From assembly GCA_023954795.1 (NCBI GenBank), contig JAGSHA010000002.1, forward strand, positions 1 through 45,957: a stretch of 45,957 bases of DNA, in the 5' to 3' direction. Position 1 is the first letter of the stretch. The number at the start of each line of letters is the position of its first letter. This DNA is from Oceanospirillaceae bacterium (GTDB lineage: Bacteria; Pseudomonadota; Gammaproteobacteria; Pseudomonadales; Balneatricaceae). Shown here piece after piece: positions 6,833 through 19,299 of the stretch. The notes under the pieces were generated by a model. That model was not told the DNA's origin. It saw nothing but the letters and a program-made list of their open reading frames with translations, and ran no database searches. Both the position numbers and the translations under genes were made by a program.

Positions 6833-7084
6833 ATGCTATTTCATTGGTTGCGATTTTTAATTTTGCTGATGGCGCCTGTCTGGATGCATGATCGTACACC
6901 TGATGAAAGGCATTTCTTTCGCCGCCGCTTTACCCTTAAACATTATAAAAAGCGTAAGAAAGTACGTTACATCTGGTTATCCGCAATTTCTGTGTGGCTG
7001 ATTAATCCTACCTTGCCGATGATGATCTTCGTCTGTTTGTTATCAACATTTCTGTCCTTCAGTTTACTGGACGAATCTTCCTGA
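6833..7084 (+). CDS. small hypothetical membrane protein
   Basis: ORF of 83 aa with hydrophobic segments, collinear with neighbours. Confidence 0.45.
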   Translation: MLFHWLRFLILLMAPVWMHDRTPDERHFFRRRFTLKHYKKRKKVRYIWLSAISVWLINPTLPMMIFVCLLSTFLSFSLLDESS

Positions 7085-7153
7085 AACTTTTCTGTCATAA
7101 GCGCGCTGTACAGTCTCCGCAAAGTTTATCGTACTGACTTCAAGAGGCTTGAG

Positions 7154-7720
7154 ATGAAAAAACTGATTGCTGGTGCCATGATTGCAGGTGCCCTGATGAG
7201 CGTTTACGGCTGCCAGTCTACAGCGACTAAAGAGACGGCTAAGCCGGTTGCTGAAGCTCCAACACTGAACAACGATGACCTGTATGAAGTGGTTCAGGAA
7301 GGTCGTTACTATGTATTTGATGATTTTAAAACGTACCAGTCTTTCCTGACAGTTGGTGAAACGTCTTACCGAAAAGTGTTTATCGGTGGCGGCCCACACG
7401 GTGAAACCCTGGTGCATGGCCTGATGGGTAAGGATAAGAAAAAGCTGTCTGGTATCGCGGGTGTAGAGATGTTCGCGGGTAAGATGGAAGCGGCTGAAGA
7501 CTTCTACGGCGAAATGCGCGGCGAAGATGGCCGTCTATATGTCTTCAACAGCCTGAAAGATATGGAAGATCTGCGTAAGGTTGGCGAAGCACCCTATCGC
7601 TTCACTCAGATTGGTGCAGGCCCTCAGGGGCAGACGGTTGTATTCGTGCTGAACAAAGGCAACAAGAAAAAAGAACCCGTTGCACTGGTTAGCCGTTTTA
7701 AGGCGATGAACAGCCTGTAA
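7154..7720 (+). CDS. putative lipoprotein, unknown function
   Basis: MKKLIAGAMIAGALMSVYGC lipobox; two internally similar segments (YYVFDDFKTYQSFLTVGETSYRKVFIGGGPHGETLV and LYVFNSLKDMEDLRKVGEAPYRFTQIGAGPQGQTVV). Confidence 0.75.
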   Translation: MKKLIAGAMIAGALMSVYGCQSTATKETAKPVAEAPTLNNDDLYEVVQEGRYYVFDDFKTYQSFLTVGETSYRKVFIGGGPHGETLVHGLMGKDKKKLSGIAGVEMFAGKMEAAEDFYGEMRGEDGRLYVFNSLKDMEDLRKVGEAPYRFTQIGAGPQGQTVVFVLNKGNKKKEPVALVSRFKAMNSL

Positions 7721-12303: not shown

Positions 12304-12672
12304 TTACTGGTTGAGCACTAGATTTTCGATCTGTTCACGCAGAGCGTCGTACTGGCCCATCTCTTCAGGCATGAAGTAGAGCTTGTAATAGCAGCGATCC
12401 ACCAGGCGGCCTTTGGCCCCGCGCACAGATTCTTTATAAGACCCAAACAGGTAGCTCATTTGAACATGGATAACGCGAGTATTTACCGGCACGGTTAGCT
12501 CGTGATGTTCCAGATCGAACCGGGTTTTGCTTTCTTTTATCGTGTAGAAAGAGACCTCGGCGACGTGATTCAGGTTGATCAGGAAGTTTGAAGTCACTGG
12601 CACCAGATGGCGTTGCTCCAGTCCGTTGTGTTCCATATAGATGCCGCAGTTTTTTCTGATCTTGATAAACAT
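12304..12672 (-). CDS. hypothetical protein
   Basis: ORF, likely start at MFIKIRKNCG (longer ORF to 12753), followed by terminator. Confidence 0.6.
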   Translation of the reverse strand: MFIKIRKNCGIYMEHNGLEQRHLVPVTSNFLINLNHVAEVSFYTIKESKTRFDLEHHELTVPVNTRVIHVQMSYLFGSYKESVRGAKGRLVDRCYYKLYFMPEEMGQYDALREQIENLVLNQ

Positions 12673-12885
12673 TGCTAATTCCTGAGAGCAATAAAGTTGA
12701 TATCGATTGAGCACTATTCTATTGCGGTTGTATGACGGATATCTTACAACCAAACGGCTCTATGACACTTTAGTCGCTCTGGCGTTAAGAGCCAGAAAAT
12801 CAGCAAAAAAGAAAATAATTCGGGTATGAGAAGTGGGAGGGGGAAGAAGGCAGATGACGGTTTGTCACCTGCCGGATGAGCTGTC

Positions 12886-16839: not shown

Positions 16840-16916
16840 GGAGCGGTAGTTCAGTTGGTTAGAATACCTGCCTGTCACGCAGGGGGTCGCGGGTTCGAGT
16901 CCCGTCCGTTCCGCCA
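16840..16916 (+). tRNA. tRNA-Asp (anticodon GTC)
   Basis: GGAGCGGTAGTTCAGTTGGTTAGAATACCTGCCTGTCACGCAGGGGGTCGCGGGTTCGAGTCCCGTCCGTTCCGCCA; cloverleaf and CCA encoded. Confidence 0.98.
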
Positions 16917-16985
16917 CTCTTAATCTTCGGGTTAAGGACTTCTTCACAATGTGCCGTGAAGATTTTAATATGGTCAGCCTTTAGT

Positions 16986-17061
<76 letters not shown>

Positions 17062-17253: not shown

Positions 17254-18177
17254 ATGAAAAAGATTGATAGTCGTACTCTCGTTAATTTATGCCCTGATCC
17301 CATCATTGGTGTAGATGCCAAAGGTCTAATTAATCTGTTTAATGCAGCGGCGCAAAGGCTGTTGGGGTATAGCAGCGAAGATGTCGTTGGGCGTCTGCAT
17401 ATCTCAGAGATCTACACCAGTCTTGATCACGCTAAAGAGATCAAACGGCTAATCCAGAGTGATGATTTTGGTGAGCGTGGTTTCGTAGAGGGGTATGAAA
17501 CCGTCTTAAAAAGCGCGCTCGGTCAGGAAATCCCTATTCGACTGTCGGCATCATTGCTCGAAGAGCGTGACGGTGGTGGAAGTGTTGGATTCTTCCATGA
17601 TCTCAGCGAACGAAAACGCCTGGAAGAGAAGCTGAAGAAGCAGTCGATTACCGATGAGCTAACCGGTTTATACAATCAACGCCATTTCTACGGCGTGTTA
17701 TCGGTAGAGATGGATCGGGCTGAGCGCTATCAGTCTCCGTTAAGCCTAATCTGTGTGGATTTGGACAATCTAAAACAAGTGAATGATCAGCTCGGACATC
17801 TCGAAGGCGATCGCATTTTGAGAGATGTCAGTCGTGCGCTTCAGGAATGCAGTCGCAGTGTGGACGCGTGTTTTCGTTATGGCGGAGACGAGTTTATGAT
17901 TTTGGCGCCACAAACAGACTGTATTGAGTCAGCGCAACTGGCTGAGCGGATTCGTATGCGGTTTAACGAAATCTGTCGTTACAGCGCAGATCTGGGTAAT
18001 ACTGTTGTGATTAATGCATCATTGAGTCTGGGGGTGACAGATACGTTGGCGCTCGAAGATGTAGATCACTTTATCCAGCGTGCGGATTTGGCGATGTATG
18101 AGGCAAAGAATGCTGGTGGGAATCGGACGATGATGATTAAGCGGCAGGTTGCAGATAAAGTCGAGGCAGAGGTGTAA
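17254..18177 (+). CDS. PAS-GGDEF diguanylate cyclase
   Basis: PAS N-terminus (LVNLCPDPIIGVDAKGLINLFNAAAQRLLGYSSEDVVGR); RYGGDEF active site; RSVD five residues upstream = canonical RxxD I-site. Confidence 0.93.
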   Translation: MKKIDSRTLVNLCPDPIIGVDAKGLINLFNAAAQRLLGYSSEDVVGRLHISEIYTSLDHAKEIKRLIQSDDFGERGFVEGYETVLKSALGQEIPIRLSASLLEERDGGGSVGFFHDLSERKRLEEKLKKQSITDELTGLYNQRHFYGVLSVEMDRAERYQSPLSLICVDLDNLKQVNDQLGHLEGDRILRDVSRALQECSRSVDACFRYGGDEFMILAPQTDCIESAQLAERIRMRFNEICRYSADLGNTVVINASLSLGVTDTLALEDVDHFIQRADLAMYEAKNAGGNRTMMIKRQVADKVEAEV

Positions 18178-18185
18178 CGCAAAGG

Positions 18186-18272
18186 TTACATCTCTGTAGC
18201 GTCATCGAAAAAGTCATCATCGTCATAGTCTTCGTTCAGCAGTTCCAGTAGCTCTTCAGTGTAGTCTTCCAT
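18186..18272 (-). CDS. candidate acidic microprotein (28 aa) MEDYTEELLELLNEDYDDDDFFDDATEM
   Basis: Short ORF on minus strand not in ORF track; purine-rich AAAGGGA upstream of ATG; strongly acidic composition. Confidence 0.45.
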   Translation of the reverse strand: MEDYTEELLELLNEDYDDDDFFDDATEM

Positions 18273-18372
18273 TGTTTTTCCCTTTCGTGTTTGATTTTGC
18301 ATAACAGTATGAGTTTAAGGTTACAGCTGTGTGACGTTGAGCTGCGTATACCGTTGTTTTGGGCTTCTTTCC

Positions 18373-19299
18373 ATGTCTTATATTGATCCTATACAGTCAA
18401 TGCGTCTTGATCAGCTGGATCTTCCGGTGTGTGCCGAACAGGGCGTCTCTCTTTATCTGCTCCGTATGGATTCAATCCACCCGCAGGTAAGTGGTAATAA
18501 GTGGTTTAAGTTGCGTTATAACCTGTTGGATGCCAAAACGTCAGGCTGTGATCGTGTGATCAGCTTTGGTGGTGCGTATTCCAATCATTTGCATGCTCTG
18601 GCCTGGGCGGGCTGTGAAATGGGTATTCAGACGTTGGGTATCGTACGCGGAGAGCCTGAATACGCGAACAATCCAACCCTGCGTGACGCGCAACGCTGGG
18701 GCATGACGCTGAAGTTTGTCAGTCGAAGTGAATACCGTCTACGGGAGGATATGCTCTACCACAAAGCACTATGTTCAACTTACCCCGGTTCTAGCATAGT
18801 CCCCGAGGGTGGCAGTAATGCGCTGGCGGTAAGAGGTTTTGCAGATCTGTTTAATCATGACTGTTGGCGTGTGCTACCTGAACCTGATCTGCTGGTGTCG
18901 GCATGTGGTACCGGTGGTACCTTAGCCGGACTCATTGCAGCTAAACCCGCAGTGACTGGAGTTTTGGGGATCCCGGTGCTTAAAGGGGGGGCGTTTCTGA
19001 AGCGTGATATTCAGTCTCTGCTGGCGGAGGTCGGAGCTGGTTCTGTCTCAAACTGGCAGTTGGATCTCGACGGTCATGAGGGGGGATATGCCAAACTCAG
19101 TGCAGAGCTCATTGAATTTATGCGTCAATTTGAAATGCAGACAAAAATTGAGCTAGATCCTGTTTACACCGGTAAGATGATGTTTCGCTTACATAAACTG
19201 ATTGCTCAAGGTAAATTCAGCCGCGGAACTAAAATCGTTGCAATTCATACGGGTGGATTGCAGGGGCGACGAGGTTTTCTTGAGCGTGGTCTTTTATAA
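18373..19299 (+). CDS. 1-aminocyclopropane-1-carboxylate deaminase / D-cysteine desulfhydrase family PLP enzyme
   Basis: SGNKWFKLRYNLLDAKTSGCDRVISFGGAYSNHLHALAWAG; VSACGTGGTLAGL. Confidence 0.85.
   Translation: MSYIDPIQSMRLDQLDLPVCAEQGVSLYLLRMDSIHPQVSGNKWFKLRYNLLDAKTSGCDRVISFGGAYSNHLHALAWAGCEMGIQTLGIVRGEPEYANNPTLRDAQRWGMTLKFVSRSEYRLREDMLYHKALCSTYPGSSIVPEGGSNALAVRGFADLFNHDCWRVLPEPDLLVSACGTGGTLAGLIAAKPAVTGVLGIPVLKGGAFLKRDIQSLLAEVGAGSVSNWQLDLDGHEGGYAKLSAELIEFMRQFEMQTKIELDPVYTGKMMFRLHKLIAQGKFSRGTKIVAIHTGGLQGRRGFLERGLL

Follow-up and report, generated by a model that had tools for sequence, protein, structure and literature searches.

A conserved acidic microprotein gene with a predicted Pho-box promoter in Pseudomonadales

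Does an open reading frame of 28 codons, lying tail to tail with a diguanylate cyclase gene, encode a protein, and if so, what controls it and what might the product do? The frame is on the minus strand of the window, by which the whole 45,957-nt stretch of DNA under analysis is meant; the genome assembly it belongs to comprises 3.5 Mb in 504 contigs. Translation from 18272 to 18186 gives MEDYTEELLELLNEDYDDDDFFDDATEM*, exactly the 28-aa acidic product proposed in the first-pass annotation, and orthologues match it in start, length and acidic pattern. Two further details of that annotation were found in place: the AAAGGGA sequence ahead of the ATG (18285-18279, 6 nt away) and the 8-bp gap to the convergent gene, with the stop of the micro-ORF ending at 18186 and that of the PAS-GGDEF gene at 18177. 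The features of the locus are collected in Table 1.

Table 1. Coordinates of the microprotein gene, its predicted control elements and its neighbours in the window
Feature	Position	Strand	Basis or remark
28-aa acidic microprotein CDS	18186..18272	-	Stop included; translation, homologues, purifying selection
Ribosome-binding site AAAGGGA	18279..18285	-	6 nt before ATG; AGGAG-like in most homologues
-10-like hexamer TACTGT	18304..18309	-	10 nt after the Pho box; positions 27-29 of the de novo motif
Pho-box-like element ACGTCACACAGCTGTAAC	18320..18337	-	Paired 7-bp direct repeats at an 11-bp period; position and register match those of the strong orthologue boxes
Convergent PAS-GGDEF protein	17254..18177	+	Pfam; context only
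Divergent PLP-dependent enzyme (PF00291)	18373..19299	+	Syntenic in Nitrincolaceae; context only
tRNA-Asp(GTC) and tRNA-Val(TAC)	16840..17061	+	Recurring neighbours of the microprotein gene

Reading frame, homologues and selection

The first-pass annotation had left the ORF to be judged by its conservation in relatives and by its codon substitutions. On the first count, six-frame and profile searches found homologues across Pseudomonadales. The six-frame search of relatives recovered orthologues both within the genus and beyond it, each next to an oppositely oriented PF00291 gene and preceded by an AGGAG-like site. With profiles built from these orthologues, homologues were then detected in many more families of the order. 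Homologues are 25–37 aa long and share the consensus MxDYxEELL, followed by a variable acidic middle and DD.xE[LMQ]. Genomes with a match nearly always carry one copy.

A 38-aa form, starting at an upstream in-frame ATG, was considered and rejected. In the Pontibacterium relatives G002 and G003 a stop codon interrupts the frame upstream, and the internal ATG, at which every other homologue starts, is therefore taken as the true start.

In the window's family, Nitrincolaceae, to which we take its genus Pontibacterium to belong, 28 of 98 good genomes had a homologue, one of them at E 0.94 and probably by chance. The corresponding figures were 154 of 190 genomes for Pseudomonadaceae and 54 of 94 for the Marinobacter family, both family names being inferred from the matching sequences. 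Named carriers include many species of Pseudomonas as well as Marinobacter, Hahella, Saccharophagus, Cellvibrio, Gilvimarinus, Thalassolituus, Oceanobacter, Halopseudomonas, Vreelandella, Neptuniibacter and Pontibacterium. Class-wide sampling outside Pseudomonadales gave one plausible match (L104, MDDYIEELLLQHEAESDWLELPEDAEEM, E = 8e-4), and a 150-genome sample of the phylum gave matches inside the order only. Pattern-scan matches in Lachnospiraceae, other Clostridia, Coriobacteriaceae and DPANN were rejected as unrelated ORF sequence, mostly much longer. A search for plasmid carriage of the gene found none. Two loci of one genus (L098 and L099; genus g71, family f36) encode a longer, Gln-rich form of 37 aa, MEDYVEELLEQQQQTEDWFELAEQHEAPVDDPLDYEE.

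Searches of Pfam, NCBIfam, PHROGs and the PDB found no relative of the family. In the open-access literature, no published description was found with fragments of the sequence, nor by searching for Pho boxes with small ORFs or for small proteins of phosphate starvation. No description of the peptide was found in the main text of a study on small proteins of P. stutzeri (PMC10433244). Its earlier detection as a hypothetical protein is possible. The microprotein is rated as a new family within the known class of stress-induced microproteins.

As to codon substitutions, purifying selection was found to act on the frame of the micro-ORF. In six lineages (Pontibacterium, Pseudomonas, Neptuniibacter, a third Nitrincolaceae genus, Thalassolituus and Marinobacter) pN/pS was 0.16–0.24 by the uncorrected Nei-Gojobori method. 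Per-site differences at codon positions 1, 2 and 3 were 0.11, 0.11 and 0.43 in Pseudomonas, with 0.70 in the upstream sequence, and 0.12, 0.09 and 0.43 in Pontibacterium, with 0.49 upstream. Third positions thus vary at roughly four times the rate of the other two, the pattern that marks translated sequence, and the micro-ORF is almost certainly protein-coding on these grounds. The frame is very short, and its length is like that of many random ORFs in the region, as might be expected of a chance ORF with skewed composition. Conservation in many genera, a conserved ribosome-binding site and selection at the codon level leave that explanation a negligible probability, and the selection results already refute it.

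The upstream Pho box

When the regions upstream of the microprotein genes were compared side by side, TGTCA repeats were apparent. A Pho-box matrix made from seven E. coli boxes was applied to 121 upstreams, which scored on average 2.8 SD above their own dinucleotide shuffles; 70% of them were reached by at most 3 of 60 shuffles. De novo motif discovery in 85 non-redundant upstreams, with no prior, returned TGTCAT-N5-TGTCAT-N10-TAG with a log-likelihood of 614, compared with 163–172 for shuffled sets (mononucleotide shuffles, run with 30 restarts against 150 for the real set). The motif consists of a pair of 7-bp direct repeats spaced at an 11-bp period, followed by a -10 TA at motif positions 27–28, and by its sequence is a PhoB Pho box followed by a -10 element. 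A PhoB site is made of two 7-bp direct repeats, and in E. coli the box usually replaces the sigma-70 -35 (PMC4971064); the repeat layout and -35 substitution of the family agree with such published PhoB promoters (PMC4971064).

In a held-out test, a matrix from families other than Nitrincolaceae was applied to 30 Nitrincolaceae upstreams. The median score was 13.2 bits, compared with -5.3 in 1,032 control stretches, and 24 of the 30 lay beyond the 99th percentile of the controls (p = 3e-19, an optimistic value in that the sequences are related). With this matrix a few Neptuniibacter species scored at background. In members of the Oceanobacter and Thalassolituus type the box is farther upstream, at -174 to -265. 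No clear Pho box was found within 360 nt of the 37-aa form (L098, L099), and its regulation may therefore differ.

The microprotein gene resembles the Pho regulon genes pstS and phoB in its paired 7-bp repeats (11-bp period) and in a -10 located about 10 nt further on, and one matrix finds boxes before both pstS and the microprotein gene. In each of the nine Nitrincolaceae genomes tested, the matrix finds boxes of this geometry ahead of pstS, at 13.9 bits in the window's own genome, and in most of the nine a weaker box precedes phoB. PhoB is encoded in 17 of 17 genomes tested, above the curated cut-off.

The window's own box, at -65, is in register with those of its relatives. Taken alone it is weak: at 6.0 bits it ranks 19th among the window's 91,844 positions, and with the E. 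coli matrix it was reached by 5 of 60 shuffles. The phoB box of the same genome, ACGTCATATTAGTGTAAC, likewise scores 6.0 bits, and an unusual TGTAAC half-site is common to the two. Among the Pontibacterium relatives the boxes score 13.1 bits in G002 and 16.7 bits in G003, and only 2.9 in the closest species, G004. No sigma-70 -35/-10 pair was found in the region of the window's micro-ORF. The main text of a P. aeruginosa PhoB ChIP-seq paper makes no mention of the microprotein locus. On this promoter evidence, control of the microprotein gene by PhoB is very likely.

Pho-box-like sites were also seen elsewhere in the window. The strongest is at 7081-7116 on the plus strand (CTGAAACTTTTCTGTCATAAGCGCGCTGTACAGTCT, 17.7 bits). 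It precedes by about 38 bp the ATG of a gene (7154-7720, plus strand) that encodes a putative lipoprotein of 188 aa, has no Pfam match and is a candidate for Pho regulation. The second, at 12749 on the minus strand (TTGTAAGATATCCGTCATACAACCGCAATAGAATAG, 13.1 bits), is near the start of an uncharacterised ORF (12304-12753, minus strand), also without a Pfam match.

Neighbouring genes

In the window the PF00291 enzyme gene is followed by nadK, and the tRNA-Asp(GTC) and tRNA-Val(TAC) genes are on the far side of the GGDEF gene. The first-pass annotation read the ORF as a possible regulatory microprotein and stressed its proximity to the diguanylate cyclase, having missed the Pho box upstream. The first part of this reading is supported and the second is not. 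GGDEF was seen as the convergent neighbour in Nitrincolaceae; in Pseudomonas, Marinobacter, Thalassolituus and Halopseudomonas an AraC-type regulator (PF12625 + HTH_18) takes its place. A functional link to the diguanylate cyclase was rejected because the convergent neighbour differs in this way between lineages, and the GGDEF gene is regarded as incidental.

The convergent gene is 3–50 bp downstream in most homologues. Such short stop-to-stop gaps, and the finding of no minus-strand terminator at the window's micro-ORF, would suit an RNA as the functional product, namely a Pho-induced antisense transcript directed at the 3' end of whichever gene converges on it (GGDEF in the window, AraC in other lineages), the ORF being incidental. 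This is very improbable given that the convergent genes are unrelated between lineages and that the constraint is at the protein level.

A second possibility concerns the opposite side of the locus. In the window the Pho box sits between two divergent starts and might serve the PLP-enzyme gene, the microprotein promoter being something else. The repeat and the -10 are, however, oriented towards the micro-ORF, and the box is kept in Marinobacter, Pseudomonas and Thalassolituus, where a tRNA or some different gene lies upstream; the proposal is hardly credible on these counts. The PF00291 gene turns up again near the microprotein gene in Cellvibrionaceae. At four loci of this family (L128, L133, L139 and L169) the next gene after that of the microprotein encodes a coiled-coil-looking protein of about 440 aa, and the PF00291 gene comes after it; in L128 this protein has no Pfam match, and its gene is about 180–1510 bp downstream of the ORF.

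A tRNA-Asp/Val cluster lies about 80–700 bp ahead of the microprotein gene, on the same strand, in Marinobacter, Thalassolituus, Oceanobacter, Cellvibrionaceae and part of Pseudomonas, the Pseudomonas arrangement presumably corresponding to PA3092-PA3095 of PAO1. In Nitrincolaceae the cluster is 1.1–1.5 kb off, on the other side of the GGDEF gene and facing it. In P. nitroreducens (L152) an intrinsic terminator comes after tRNA-Asp, so that the microprotein gene there forms its own transcription unit. Co-transcription with tRNA-Asp was accordingly rejected as a key feature, given the intrinsic terminator between the two in Pseudomonas and the inverted order in Nitrincolaceae. The tpr ORF of the E. 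coli tyrT operon is a tiny basic ORF just downstream of a tRNA gene, with which it is co-transcribed. The microprotein gene is likewise a tiny ORF near tRNA genes, but its product is acidic, it has a predicted Pho promoter of its own, and in L152 the terminator splits it from tRNA-Asp. Since the convergent gene and the tRNA arrangement vary and the gene is its own transcription unit in P. nitroreducens, its neighbours do not explain the microprotein.

The number of tRNA copies beside the locus ranges from one to nine among relatives. Neptuniibacter sp. PT1 (L154) has at least nine alternating tRNA-Val(TAC) and tRNA-Asp(GTC) genes in one array.

Peptide properties and proposed function

Among 98 distinct proteins the median net charge is -12 (range -9 to -18), and Lys and Arg are almost absent from the family. 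An AlphaFold2 model of a 33-aa homologue has a helix at residues 2–16 and an unstructured tail (mean pLDDT 69, pTM 0.29), with a pLDDT of 84 over the first ten residues. Y4 and L8 are invariant in alignment A4, and the helix has further hydrophobic positions. The conserved parts of the peptide are DYxEELL in the helix and the C-terminal DD.xE; in Pseudomonas a Pro-containing sequence stands in place of the Asp run.

The best explanation, to which we assign a probability of about three in four, is a phosphate-starvation microprotein activated by PhoB, whose acidic helix and disordered tail bind a protein partner. The gene would be a single-copy, monocistronic member of the Pho regulon, with a soluble, strongly acidic product of 25–37 aa and a net charge of about -12. 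When phosphate is short, PhoB phosphorylated by PhoR would occupy the box that replaces the -35 and switch the gene on. The N-terminal helix DYxEELL could then dock through a stripe of Y4, L8 and L11/12 on a conserved cytosolic partner, while the disordered Asp/Glu tail might fill a basic or phosphate-binding surface and damp the partner during phosphate scarcity. A docking helix with a damping polyanionic tail is considered the likeliest mode, and is put forward less firmly than activation by PhoB. The likeliest partners would be PhoR or PhoU, in feedback, or a protein that binds nucleic acid or polyphosphate.

Among bacterial responses the Pho regulon is one of the most thoroughly studied, and the growth and virulence programmes of Pseudomonas and marine bacteria are shaped by a limited phosphate supply. 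Known members of the regulon are transporters, phosphatases and regulators, among which none of this microprotein family was found described. A Pho-box gene that some 80% of the Pseudomonadaceae sampled possess, and for which Pfam, NCBIfam and PHROGs have no model, would fill a gap in the regulon and would be open to immediate knock-out in laboratory strains. It is suggested, tentatively, that the family is an undescribed order-wide regulator of phosphate starvation, a PhoB-induced polyanionic microprotein that, in Pseudomonas and the related carriers, acts post-transcriptionally on a core cytosolic protein to which it binds. Conservation of a promoter alone can in this way give a 28-codon gene a testable function.

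One special case of the preferred reading is a feedback modulator of Pho signalling, which would bind PhoR, PhoU or PhoB and tune or shut off the response. Pho-box control implies induction while the system is active, as such a role would have it, and the unrelated DUF1127 small proteins (YjiS and Agrobacterium homologues) offer a precedent in binding PhoR and restraining phosphate uptake (PMC12501420). The resemblance is that of small proteins in phosphate control: Pfam and NCBIfam searches gave no sequence link to DUF1127, the microprotein has the opposite charge, and it is predicted to be controlled by PhoB rather than to act on it. None of the loci examined has the gene beside phoBR, pst or phoU, and this narrower role is considered unlikely. 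IraP, the RssB/RpoS anti-adaptor of E. coli, is an 86-aa protein controlled by ppGpp and not by a Pho box. It too is a small cytosolic protein tied to phosphate starvation (PMC4415409), and was compared with the microprotein by description.

The strong negative charge, near absence of Lys and Arg and Asp-rich tail would also fit another special case, the nucleic-acid mimic suggested in the first-pass annotation, which would block a DNA- or RNA-binding protein in phosphate starvation. Conservation falls, however, on DYxEELL and DD.xE, while Pseudomonas exchanges the Asp run for its Pro-containing sequence, and the mimic is regarded as quite unlikely. Known DNA mimics are larger folded proteins in which the charges copy the phosphate backbone. 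Strong negative charge is common to the microprotein and to mimics of the Ocr and HI1450 type, but the microprotein is far shorter, and the model of its 33-aa homologue, at a pTM of 0.29, predicts no folded core.
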